Positions 3,493 through 6,203 of a stretch of 53,666 nucleotides of DNA are shown one piece after another (the stretch's first letter is position 1; every line of letters begins with the position of its first letter). A program made the translations under genes and the position numbers. The stretch lies in the NCBI GenBank assembly GCA_022448945.1, contig JAKVCV010000024.1, positions 1-53,666 of the forward strand, in the 5' to 3' direction. Below the pieces are notes generated by a model. It was not told where the DNA came from. It was given only the letters and a program-made list of their open reading frames with translations, and did not search any database. The DNA is from Saprospiraceae bacterium. Its GTDB lineage: Bacteria > Bacteroidota > Bacteroidia > Chitinophagales > Saprospiraceae.

Positions 3493-3617
3493 TTTACTAA
3501 TTGAATAAACGAAAAAAGACGGCTCAAAAATTCAATATAAAAATAATGAATTTTGAATAAGTTATTAAAAAAATTCCGTTCTTGTCAAAAAGGCTAAATC
3601 AAAGATATAATCATAAC

Positions 3618-4004
3618 ATGAAAACAAGTATTTTAACGATTTTACTTATTTTGTTTTTCATAGGATGTAAGAGCTCAAAAATTGAAAAAATCCAAAATAG
3701 AAGTACTGACATCAATTTATTATTTGGACTATGGAAAGTCACTGCTTTTAGATTTAATGATGGCAGGGTAATGCTAGGAGAATACATGGGCAATCCTGAA
3801 TATGAATTTACTAAAGAAGGAAATCGAATAAAGACACTTAATACAGAACCTGCCCCTCCTGCCGAATCTGTTGAATATAAAATTGAAGGAGATAGTATAA
3901 AATACCCTCAAAAACCTAAATTCCCTAACATGAAAATTGTAAAGTTATCAAAAGACACATTGGTCTTGAGTAATAAAACATTATCATGGTATTTACACAA
4001 ATAA
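3618..4004 (+). CDS. Small lipocalin-like lipoprotein
   Basis: I take the ATG at 3618, not an earlier in-frame codon at 3582, because it begins a clean lipoprotein signal peptide: MKTSILTILLILFFIGCKSS, with lipobox FIGC and Cys17 as the acylation site. The mature part is about 110 residues, with LFGLWKVTAFRF near its start and alternating beta-strand segments ending in KLSKDTLVLSNKTLSWYLHK. This layout (an early Gly-x-Trp followed by a DSI strand and an LxKDTLVL strand) matches small lipocalin-like lipoproteins of Bacteroidota. The ligand is unknown. The next gene, 39 bases downstream, has a similar layout, so the two may be diverged tandem copies. Recognition is by pattern only. Confidence 0.7.
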   Translation: MKTSILTILLILFFIGCKSSKIEKIQNRSTDINLLFGLWKVTAFRFNDGRVMLGEYMGNPEYEFTKEGNRIKTLNTEPAPPAESVEYKIEGDSIKYPQKPKFPNMKIVKLSKDTLVLSNKTLSWYLHK

Positions 4005-4043
4005 AAGATAAATTTAATGCTAAACTATATCAAACTATTAAAC

Positions 4044-4523
4044 ATGTATAAAACACCAAAAATTAATATTATTGTATTATTAATGATTTCCTTTTTGGGT
4101 TTTAATGAATCTTATGCTCAAGATAAAGAAGATAAAAAAATGAATGAAACATTGGCCAAAGTAAATAAATGGCGATGTAAAAAAGTCTTGGTGGATGGCA
4201 AAGAGATAAACCTAGACAGTACGAACATAGGAGTTGTTACAATGGAATTTTCAGTTCTTAAAAAAAGGAAAATAAAAAAAATCACTACCAAAAAAGGAGT
4301 AGAAAAAAATAAAAAAGTATTAGAAATGACTAATGTCTTCAAGATTGAAATGAGTGGAAATGATCGGATATTTAACTATAACATAAAAAACGACTCTATT
4401 CAATTTATGTCTGTCAAAGGCTTCAATGATTATAAAATAATCAGTATTAATGATACAGAGCTTTTATTAGAACATGTCTTAAACAAAAGCAAATTCAGCT
4501 GGCTAATGATTCCAATAGAATAA
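4044..4523 (+). CDS. Small exported lipocalin-like protein
   Basis: An exported protein of unknown function. An ATG at 4017 is also in frame, but the ATG at 4044 gives a standard signal peptide (INIIVLLMISFLGFNESYAQ, cleavage after Ala-Gln) and is preferred. The mature domain has an early Trp (KVNKWRCKKVLVDGKEI), a very Lys-rich middle (about residues 70-95), then FNYNIKNDSIQF and an ISINDTELLLEH strand ending in FSWLMIPIE. The W, DSI, D-x-L-L-L and SW order repeats that of the preceding lipoprotein, which suggests that the two are relatives and probably co-transcribed (39-base gap). There is no lipobox, so it is likely periplasmic or secreted. Confidence 0.65.
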   Translation: MYKTPKINIIVLLMISFLGFNESYAQDKEDKKMNETLAKVNKWRCKKVLVDGKEINLDSTNIGVVTMEFSVLKKRKIKKITTKKGVEKNKKVLEMTNVFKIEMSGNDRIFNYNIKNDSIQFMSVKGFNDYKIISINDTELLLEHVLNKSKFSWLMIPIE

Positions 4524-4716
4524 TACAAAGCAATAAAAGTTTACATTAAAGTAATGCCATAGAAAAAATAGAACTAAAATATAATTTCTATATCATACAT
4601 TCAAGTACTGTATTATAAGCGATTCAATTATTTAAAATTATATAACTAATATCTAAAGCTAATCGATTAATTTCTTTTAGGTCAAGATATCAATAGCTGG
4701 TTGGTTCTAAATAAAA

Positions 4717-4742
4717 TTGAAAAAATTAAACTATTTTTTCAA
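4717..4742. repeat. Short perfect inverted repeat (10-bp arms)
   Basis: TTGAAAAAAT at 4717-4726 is repeated in inverse at 4733-4742 around the loop TAAACT. It lies about 190 bases after the upstream gene and just before a promoter-like element. It could be a weak terminator for the small exported gene pair, but the stem is almost all A-T. Confidence 0.4.
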
Positions 4743-4750
4743 TAATAGTT

Positions 4751-4780
4751 TTGGTGTTTTATATAATTTTATTAGCTTTG
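4751..4780 (+). promoter_or_regulatory. Bacteroidota-type promoter (TTG-N19-TAnnTTTG) for a candidate small RNA
   Basis: TTG at 4751-4753, 19 bases, then TAGCTTTG at 4773-4780. Both elements and the spacing agree with the sigma-ABfr promoter consensus TTG-N17-23-TAnnTTTG known from Bacteroides and Flavobacterium. Transcription would start near 4786-4788. A second exact TAnnTTTG (TAGTTTTG, 4746-4753) overlaps the upstream part. No protein gene follows before the terminator at 4878. Confidence 0.55.
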
Positions 4781-4786
4781 GGCTGT

Positions 4787-4916
4787 CGTTGTAATACATT
4801 AGATATTAGATGTTGTCAATTCGACGGAATAAACATCTAATGTATTACGAATTAATTGATTGATTTTTGGTGATTATAAGGTTTGTTAAACGAAAGTTTG
4901 ACAAACCTTTTTTTTT
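4787..4916 (+). ncRNA. Candidate intergenic small RNA (about 130 nt) with two alternative 5' hairpins
   Basis: Between the promoter at 4751-4780 and the terminator at 4878-4916 lies a segment with two competing stems. Stem A is a perfect 14-bp repeat: GTAATACATTAGAT (4791-4804) with its inverse at 4835-4848. Stem B is a perfect 10-bp repeat: ATTAGATGTT (4805-4814) with AACATCTAAT (4832-4841), extended by GTC/GAC (4815-4817 and 4823-4825). Both need bases 4835-4841, so they exclude each other. The only reading frame inside is a 17-codon ATG frame at 4810, which I regard as chance. The nearest genes end at 4523 (forward) and 5049 (reverse), so neither explains the signals. I do not recognise a known RNA family. 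Confidence 0.5.
4878..4916 (+). terminator. Strong intrinsic terminator, forward strand
   Basis: AAGGTTTGT (4878-4886) pairs with ACAAACCTT (4901-4909). The stem continues inside with AAAC/GTTT around a GAAA tetraloop (4892-4895), interrupted only by a T-G mismatch. A run of T reaches 4916. There is no T-run on the other strand, so it acts forward. It is 355 bases beyond the last forward gene. Confidence 0.8.
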
Positions 4917-5048
4917 GATCTTATAATTACTATCAATTATAGTCTCTAAGCAAAATGATGGAAAATATGAAAATTTAAAAAGGAAAAAGACAATAGTTTT
5001 ATTTTAGTAGAAAATTATAAACCCCTATATGATTAGCACCTATGTACC

Positions 5049-6203
5049 TCAAGCAAGTTGTTGAACATTTCTACGGATAGAGGCAACATTTACCCAAATA
5101 AATAATATAGAGAAAAGAACTCCTGCCAACCATACAATTGGATCTAAATTATAACTCAAATTATATCCTTGTTCTTCAATTTGCTTAGCAATAACATACT
5201 TAATAGGAATAAGAAACATAAAAACTGCAATTACCACTACTCCAAAAAGAAACAACAAATTTCTGGCAAGCACCTGCGCTATTTTGTTTATATGATAACC
5301 AAGTTCTAAAAGCAGCTTAATATCATTACTAAGTTGAGCAATAAGCACTTGAAAATTAAGGGCAAAAACCAACATAGACAAACTAACTATAATAAAACCA
5401 ATAATGATTATCAAAAAAACGAGTAAAAATAAGGTGGTTTTAAGTTCTCCACCTATCAACCCTCCCCGAGAGATTTCATAGTTGTTTTCTTCCAAAAATT
5501 TCTCTAAACTAACACTATATGGGTTGTCAGTAGAAGCAATAACTTGAGTTGGAAGTTTAGTTGCTGTACCATCACCAAATTTATCATTGGCATATTTCAT
5601 AAAAGACTTTGGTGTCAGAATAGAATTTACATTTGGCGTAAATCCACACACATAAGCATCAAAATATTCTATCTTCCCATTGCCGGTTACTGTAATTTTG
5701 AAATCAACTAAACGAATAGAGCTAGCTGAAAACTTGGGTAATCCCTGACTCGGAGCAAAACCAAAATTATACAAAGCTAAATAATCACTTGAGAGTACTA
5801 TTGGAATTCTATCGCCGGGATGCCATTGAAACAAAACTGAATCTACCGACAAAAATGAATGAGGAAGTGATTGAAAAAAAAGAAGAGTCGTGAAACCCAT
5901 TGCTCTACTAGATAAAGATACTTTATATTTGTTGGATTCAAAGGCATCAACTTTCTTAAAGAATGGCTGTTTTTGAATCTCCTGAAATTCTTCATCAGAA
6001 AACTCTAATGGTTTACCATAATTTTTTTCAAAAATCTTATTGATAACCAAAAAGTTGTTGTCTCTAGCCCCTTTGGTAAGAATCTGAATATCAAGATAAA
6101 CCTGAACGGCAAAAAGCAACAAAAAAAGACCAATAAAGATGCCTGCAGAAGCACCGATAGACTGCCAACGATTTTTATTTTTCCAAAGTAATTTATTTAG
6201 CAT
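5049..6203 (-). CDS. FtsX-like (MacB/LolE-type) ABC permease without adjacent ATPase
   Basis: Inner-membrane protein of 384 aa with the FtsX/MacB topology: TM1 at about 16-37, a large periplasmic domain (38-255), then TM2 (257-283), TM3 (315-337) and TM4 (356-375). The segment LLLELGYHINKIAQVLARN between TM2 and TM3 matches the cytoplasmic coupling helix of FtsX-like permeases, which contacts the ATPase. Such proteins act in mechanotransmission or lipoprotein/peptide export rather than in classical import. No ATP-binding partner lies nearby, so the ATPase must be encoded elsewhere. It is the last gene of a reverse series RsgA, 245-aa hypothetical, permease, separated from the hypothetical by 67 bases. 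Confidence 0.7.
   Translation of the reverse strand: MLNKLLWKNKNRWQSIGASAGIFIGLFLLLFAVQVYLDIQILTKGARDNNFLVINKIFEKNYGKPLEFSDEEFQEIQKQPFFKKVDAFESNKYKVSLSSRAMGFTTLLFFQSLPHSFLSVDSVLFQWHPGDRIPIVLSSDYLALYNFGFAPSQGLPKFSASSIRLVDFKITVTGNGKIEYFDAYVCGFTPNVNSILTPKSFMKYANDKFGDGTATKLPTQVIASTDNPYSVSLEKFLEENNYEISRGGLIGGELKTTLFLLVFLIIIIGFIIVSLSMLVFALNFQVLIAQLSNDIKLLLELGYHINKIAQVLARNLLFLFGVVVIAVFMFLIPIKYVIAKQIEEQGYNLSYNLDPIVWLAGVLFSILFIWVNVASIRRNVQQLA

Follow-up and report, generated by a model that had tools for sequence, protein, structure and literature searches.

Anatomy of the Locus

What is produced from a stretch of DNA in which a promoter and a terminator stand without a protein gene? The question is raised by a locus in the window, i.e., the whole stretch of 53,666 nucleotides that was analyzed (contig C17 of genome G000). 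An earlier note on this DNA had read a TTG-N19-TAGCTTTG promoter, a 14-bp repeat, a 10-bp repeat, and a terminator, and had proposed a free-standing small RNA (sRNA) of about 130 nt that could switch between two folds. All of these elements were present at the places given there (Table 1), and no open reading frame of ≥ 60 amino acids covers the locus. The spacer between TTG and TAGCTTTG is 19 nt in the window sequence, and we take the two boxes (TTG and TAnnTTTG) to be of the Bacteroidota promoter type. The arms of the terminator stem occupy positions 4878–4891 and 4896–4909, and the T-run reaches 4916; this was the sole terminator found by a consensus scan of 4500–5100, for which shuffled sequences gave an expectation of 0.0. 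Two features go beyond the description in the earlier note: the most conserved element of the locus is the linker between the two stems (4856–4876), and an inverted repeat, AAACT-N14-AGTTT (4728–4751), abuts the −33 box.

Table 1. Features of the sRNA locus, in positions of the window.
Feature	Position	Strand	Basis
Inverted repeat AAACT-N14-AGTTT, candidate operator	4728–4751	+	conserved; ends in the −33 box
−33 box, TTG	4751–4753	+	read in the sequence; TTTTG aligned in congeners
−7 box, TAGCTTTG (TAnnTTTG)	4773–4780	+	read in the sequence; similar boxes in relatives by eye
Predicted sRNA transcript, ~130 nt, 5′ end approximate	4786–4916	+	promoter-to-terminator span; covariance-model match
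5′ hairpin, sequence variable, pairing conserved	4789–4850	+	fold; pair changes on both sides
Competing 10-bp repeat, most likely a chance overlap	4805–4841	+	ensemble probability ~0.002; absent from six congener hairpins
Invariant linker, proposed seed, TTGATTGATTTTTGGTGATTA	4856–4876	+	found without mismatch in 13 of 398 genomes of the family; identity 1.00
Intrinsic terminator, 14-bp stem, GAAA loop, T-run	4878–4916	+	sequence, fold, scan, pair changes

No Rfam family reached the gathering cut-off at the window locus or in seven loci, so that the Rfam comparison recommended in the earlier note assigned the RNA to no family. In 4700–5000, six weak hits with E values of up to 10 all stayed below the cut-off. 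Two side observations concern the surroundings. A perfect match to TTGACA-N18-TATAAT at 4898–4927 overlaps the terminator; it probably arose by chance, because the phylum uses another promoter type, the Bacteroidota type being different from TTGACA/TATAAT. Additionally, positions 3582–4004 and 4017–4523 encode two small secreted-type proteins with no Pfam or NCBIfam match; they are neighbors of the sRNA in G000 and G007, and in G003–G006 their place is taken by other genes.

Secondary Structure and the Proposed Switch

The fold of positions 4787–4916 had an energy of −40.3 kcal/mol, compared with −19.9 kcal/mol (standard deviation 3.1) for shuffled sequences (z = −6.57), and none of 200 shuffles was as low. 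The 5′ hairpin is built on a 14-bp perfect repeat (4791–4804 with 4835–4848), which the fold extends by two pairs to 4789–4850. We analyzed covariation in seven distinct copies, using a structure taken from the window copy, which favors that structure; 93.4% of the pair cells were standard pairs. In both stems together, 13 of the 29 pairs changed on both sides, and the covariation score was 0.345 vs. 0.178 in shuffles; neither of these values, nor the share of standard pairs, was equaled in 500 shuffles, and the count of pair types was reached by nine of the 500. When the partners were slid by one to three columns, pairing dropped to 58% or less. Changes on both sides were seen in eight of the 15 pairs of the 5′ hairpin (90.0% of cells paired) and in five of the 14 pairs of the terminator stem (96.9%). 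The 5′ hairpin varies greatly in sequence and length, and is short in G002 and G007.

The main hairpin and the terminator covary. The competing stem was seen in none of the six congener hairpins that were folded. This stem (arms 4805–4814 and 4832–4841, plus GTC/GAC) depends on a short TTAGAT duplication, seen in the window copy only. A switch between two mutually exclusive hairpins, with both named folds populated and conserved, is therefore not supported. Both repeats do exist in the window, but the 5′ domain with the alternative stem enforced had an energy of −16.5 vs. −22.2 kcal/mol, and this gap of 5.7 kcal/mol, together with a probability of ~0.002 for a central pair of that stem, speaks against the switch. 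The G006 copy (L014) retains the main hairpin with most of the six assumed 5′ ends; with one of them, three bases further upstream (75 nt before the seed), it folds differently and part of the linker becomes paired. Refolding as such may therefore occur in some species, but we give the two-state switch between the named folds next to no probability.

Distribution of the sRNA Gene

To follow the locus in other genomes, positions 4740–4930 were used as a similarity query against 60 genomes (G000 itself, eight congeners, and 51 genomes of other genera). Matches with E values of 1.5e-6 or better were found in seven of the eight Aureispira congeners, and none better than E = 0.01 was found in the 51 genomes of other genera. 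A covariance model built on seven copies was searched in 398 genomes of the family and matched 21 of these at E ≤ 0.01. Eight of these are of the same genus (G000 counted). G106 and four members of a second genus, g79, which may be Saprospira, all had E ≤ 1.3e-7, and G317, which also belongs to g79, had E = 0.007. In the window, the match covers 4783–4920 with 138.6 bits, the window copy itself being part of the model. The seven further matches (E = 0.001–0.01) were rejected as members because those genomes lack the seed even with two mismatches allowed.

The linker TTGATTGATTTTTGGTGATTA occurs exactly in 13 of the 398 genomes, i.e., seven of the same genus (g1; G000 counted), G106, and five of g79; G002 has 20 of the 21 bases, with one mismatch. 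Members in further genera were sought among the 23 other genomes that contain the seed with one or two mismatches, and were rejected: by eye, no terminator follows the seed in any of the 21 readable loci. Six named records contain the seed (four from Aureispira, one from Aureispira sp. Cli_1, and one from an uncultured Saprospiraceae); the Cli_1 copy is identical to that of G106, and Aureispira sp. CCB-QB1 carries the gene. In G001, whose assembly is 92% complete and in 560 contigs, the covariance-model search did not find the gene. A repeated or mobile element was rejected as an explanation, since G000 has one copy and the covariance-model and seed searches returned one match per genome.

In G106 and in the congeners except G002, an FtsX-like permease gene is always found to the same side of the sRNA gene wherever the stretch read extends that far. 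The genes between the sRNA and the permease, and those upstream, differ: two small secreted-type genes are present in G000 and G007, and another gene is on the permease side of the sRNA in G003–G006 and G106. In G002, the four close g79 genomes, and G317, the sRNA gene stands among other neighbors than in Aureispira. From these differences we infer that the gene moved, or that its surroundings were rearranged, at least twice, and the invariance of the linker in such varied surroundings fits action in trans. Promoter-like boxes (by eye), the stem, the linker, and the terminator are kept in the relatives; the lack of conservation that the earlier note had named as a refutation was thus not encountered. 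The presence of the gene in 14 genomes from three genera, the covariation, and a shared promoter and terminator anatomy argue for the free-standing RNA of ~130 nt that had been proposed, and on these comparative grounds the conserved sRNA gene is in all likelihood real.

The Invariant Linker and Its Pairing Partner

Among seven non-redundant copies, the linker had a mean pairwise identity of 1.00, compared with 0.48 over the 75 nt that precede it and 0.73 over the 36 nt that follow. The centroid fold of the window copy leaves the linker unpaired, and the minimum-energy fold places a weak 5-bp stem in it. A coding function was considered and rejected: every position is invariant, and the only open reading, by eye, consists of about five codons from a TTG.

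Complements of the seed were sought with a 15-mer and up to two mismatches in three genomes (G000, G005, and G087). The numbers of sites, which include the sRNA itself, were only weakly above those of the reversed pattern (54 vs. 40, 52 vs. 29, and 22 vs. 19). For gapped complement patterns, the reversed control was poorly matched owing to codon effects, and no enrichment was drawn from them. Of the 104 sites in G000 and G005 (sRNA excluded), 103 were read with start codons sought within 90 nt, and no orthologous start-proximal pair emerged at first; the 103 include the G005 phasin site, whose start codon lies beyond that limit, and the 22 sites of G087 were outside that round. Among the matches listed for G087 was a 16-nt perfect complement located 32 nt upstream of the ATG of a phasin-family gene, after a promoter-like box, TACCTTTG (by eye). 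The target was thus found post hoc, from the site list of one genome, before the homologous leaders were read.

Phasin homologues were present in 14 of the 15 genomes looked up (G008 was left out), the exception being G340, which is 63% complete, and they form two-gene sets. Against PF05597 (cut-off 28.8 bits), the first cistron of G087 scored 30.6 bits and the second cistron of G000 29.3; the second G087 cistron stayed under the cut-off with 22.7 bits, and no Pfam family matched the first cistron of Aureispira. The first gene in G000, G005, and G007 is 29–32% similar to the G087 query. In G001, G003, G004, and G006, the match was in the second gene, and the leader used is that of the preceding gene, identified as a homologue by the start of its sequence and its place.

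The site was found in 13 of the 14 first-gene leaders, with the seed pairing over ~20 nt at −18.4 to −23.8 kcal/mol. Over all 14 leaders, the mean seed–leader energy was −20.4 kcal/mol, compared with −12.1 (standard deviation 1.4, best −17.2) for 300 dinucleotide shuffles of the seed, none of which was as low; for single leaders other than that of G002, zero to five of the 300 shuffles did as well. Because the leaders of the four g79 genomes are nearly identical, the number of independent cases is smaller than 13. The G002 leader has no site (−10.2 kcal/mol), though 20 of the 21 linker bases are kept there. The G001 leader has one (−19.4 kcal/mol), and the failure to find the sRNA in that genome means either that the gene falls in a gap of the assembly or that it was lost. 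In the four g79 genomes, the site is near perfect, ATCACCAAAAATCAA; in G106 and G317 it is interrupted; and in seven Aureispira genomes it is AATCATCAACAATCAAT, whose pairing with the seed includes one G-U pair and a single mismatch. These 17 nt are the longest invariant block of the seven Aureispira leaders. Furthermore, the second phasin cistron is also preceded by a site in G106 and the four g79 genomes.

In G000, the target lies on contig C6 and the sRNA on C17. The phasin leader of this genome ranked first among 606 sampled genes (−20.0 kcal/mol vs. a mean of −9.8, standard deviation 2.1, next −17.7), in a sample that covers 854 kb, about a fifth of the genome, and includes the phasin contig by choice. 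This ranking also bears on the idea that the linker serves mainly to bind a protein, its match to the phasin leader being incidental. Full invariance over 21 nt exceeds the need of most seeds, which speaks for a bound protein. However, besides the first rank of the phasin leader, 13 of the 14 leaders retain the site, which in Aureispira is surrounded by leader sequence that varies, and we regard a mainly protein-binding linker as very improbable. The phasin leader as a base-pairing partner of the sRNA is, in terms of sequence comparison, strongly supported. Since the invariant 21-nt stretch matches the leader of the phasin genes, which are of the granule-coating type, in nearly all genomes examined, this predicted sRNA of gliding bacteria probably controls the phasin operon by base pairing.

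Possible Mode of Action

By sequence, the locus has features of a trans-encoded antisense sRNA gene: its own promoter and intrinsic terminator, an intergenic and non-coding position, and a conserved unpaired seed that is complementary to an mRNA leader encoded elsewhere. The explanation that we favor, and hold to be probable, is that a stand-alone, trans-acting antisense sRNA anneals by its seed to the leader of the PF05597 operon and lowers the expression of that operon. The promoter would yield an RNA of ~130 nt with three modules (the 5′ hairpin, the 21-nt seed, and the terminator), the seed would anneal over ~20 nt to the 5′ leader of the phasin-family operon, and annealing would reduce phasin expression. 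The conserved gene, its structure, the invariance of the linker, and the complementarity are computed results, from which we infer expression of the sRNA, pairing in the cell, and a negative sign of regulation.

The position of the site suggests two ways in which annealing might act. In g79, G106, and G317, it spans −36 to −10 from the start codon, where annealing would keep ribosomes from loading. The Aureispira sites span −102 to −53, some 20–40 nt from the predicted 5′ end and beyond the usual ribosome footprint. In the seven Aureispira leaders (L324, which is that of G000 on C6, L325, and L327–L331), the site is closely followed, before the start codon, by a terminator-like hairpin, GGGATGA...CATCCC, which in G000 has a run of seven U; annealing beside it may instead affect attenuation or RNA decay. 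The consensus terminator scan did not list the G000 hairpin, we suppose because of its inner loop.

This hairpin invites the opposite sign. With the hairpin before the start codon, phasin expression would need read-through, and the sRNA might activate the operon in Aureispira by promoting read-through or by protecting the mRNA when it anneals beside the hairpin, which lies closely 3′ of the site in all seven leaders. However, when five Aureispira pairs were cofolded, binding of the sRNA left the hairpin intact, and no such hairpin was seen in the leaders of G087, G106, and G317, whose sites are close to the start codon. Activation is therefore unlikely in our judgment. The geometry of the G000 leader could also be that of a sponge, in which transcription mostly stops at the hairpin and the short RNA released, made up almost entirely of anti-seed and hairpin, titrates the sRNA from its real targets, such as those suggested by candidate sites in single genomes at sucA and at thiolase, acyl-CoA dehydrogenase, acyl-CoA carboxylase, and aldehyde dehydrogenase genes. 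That each of these sites is known from one genome only, that the leader hairpin is limited to Aureispira, and that the consensus scan does not list its G000 form as a terminator make a sponge quite improbable as the main explanation. Repression is more likely as the sign of regulation overall, because the start-proximal geometry occurs in three lineages; the Aureispira arrangement would also suit attenuation, antitermination, and sponge models.

Comparison With Known Small RNAs

Like 6S RNA and other housekeeping RNAs, the RNA described here is a free-standing small RNA. The shape of 6S RNA is one long bulged duplex, in contrast to the two hairpins and open linker found here, and no Rfam match at gathering scores was obtained.

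In an excerpted description (PMC7366714), GibS of Bacteroides thetaiotaomicron resembles this sRNA in being an intergenic RNA of Bacteroidota with a long, conserved, single-stranded seed, which pairs with the translation initiation regions of metabolic mRNAs. It differs in that its seed lies in the 5′ portion, its targets are others, and it belongs to another genus; the two are compared by description only. The same text gives 6–10 nt as the typical seed length of Hfq-dependent sRNAs and presents GibS, in 2020, as the first trans-encoded Bacteroidetes sRNA with targets from a genome-wide screen; since it is called the first of its kind, supported sRNA targets in Bacteroidota seem to be few. 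MmgR (alpha-r8) of Sinorhizobium meliloti exerts negative post-transcriptional control, direct or indirect, on PhaP1 and PhaP2, according to excerpts of two reports (PMC8401924, PMC9049629). In common with our sRNA, it is trans-encoded, controls phasins (here a prediction), and has a promoter with a conserved dyad motif; unlike our sRNA, it is alphaproteobacterial, 77 nt long, and Hfq-dependent, and the two are likened by role alone (PMC8401924, PMC9049629). In the titles and abstract openings listed for Aureispira, Saprospira, Saprospiraceae, and Bacteroidetes phasins or sRNAs, no report of this RNA was found.

Here, comparative genomics alone provides both sides of the proposed interaction: the 21-nt seed, which is invariant, and its site, which 13 of 14 genomes have in the leader. 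If our reading is right, sRNA control of phasins would exist in two phyla, and the very long, unchanging seed would offer a natural case for the study of RNA pairing. A direct test is feasible because a named strain, Aureispira sp. CCB-QB1, carries the gene.

Wider Targets and Control of the sRNA Gene

Seed complements before other metabolic genes were also recorded. In G106, a 15-nt perfect complement lies 32 nt before sucA (L304), whose product has E1_dh and 2-oxogl_dehyd_N domains (2-oxoglutarate dehydrogenase E1); it was among the matches listed, as were sites before thiolase and sterol-desaturase-like genes in G005 (L240 and L392) and before an aldehyde dehydrogenase gene in G087 (L407). 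In G000, sites before acyl-CoA dehydrogenase and acyl-CoA carboxylase genes (L378 and L367) ranked sixth and seventh of 606. The gene names in G005, G087, and G000 were assigned by eye. A broader proposal, possible but doubtful, is that a new Bacteroidota sRNA family governs carbon storage and the flux of acyl-CoA as a master regulator, its one long seed pairing with the phasin, thiolase, acyl-CoA dehydrogenase and carboxylase, and aldehyde and 2-oxoglutarate dehydrogenase leaders; that the Aureispira phasin leader doubles as a terminated sponge; and that the sRNA and a PRK07568-type aminotransferase are under the control of the same transcription factor palindrome. If this were true, the role of MmgR would have been invented independently in another phylum.

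The palindrome is AAACT-N14-AGTTT, a candidate operator of a transcription factor, judged from its sequence and position. It abuts the −33 box of the sRNA promoter in all eight genomes searched, partly by construction, as the strict pattern was derived from these same promoter sites; in the G317 promoter, no clear form was seen by eye. In G000, the sRNA promoter was the only strict match, and a looser pattern gave two further sites vs. one in the reversed control. The strict pattern had 12 matches in the eight genomes, namely eight at the sRNA, three at orthologous aminotransferase genes, and one elsewhere, compared with four for the reversed control, so that matches away from the sRNA are no more numerous than in the control. 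No clear form was seen at the aminotransferase gene in seven of the 13 genomes read, G000 among them. By eye, the palindrome precedes the PRK07568-type aminotransferase gene in G006, G007, and G008, and in its strict form it stands a few bases before the start codon of that gene in G003, G004, and G005 (L217, L225, and L219).
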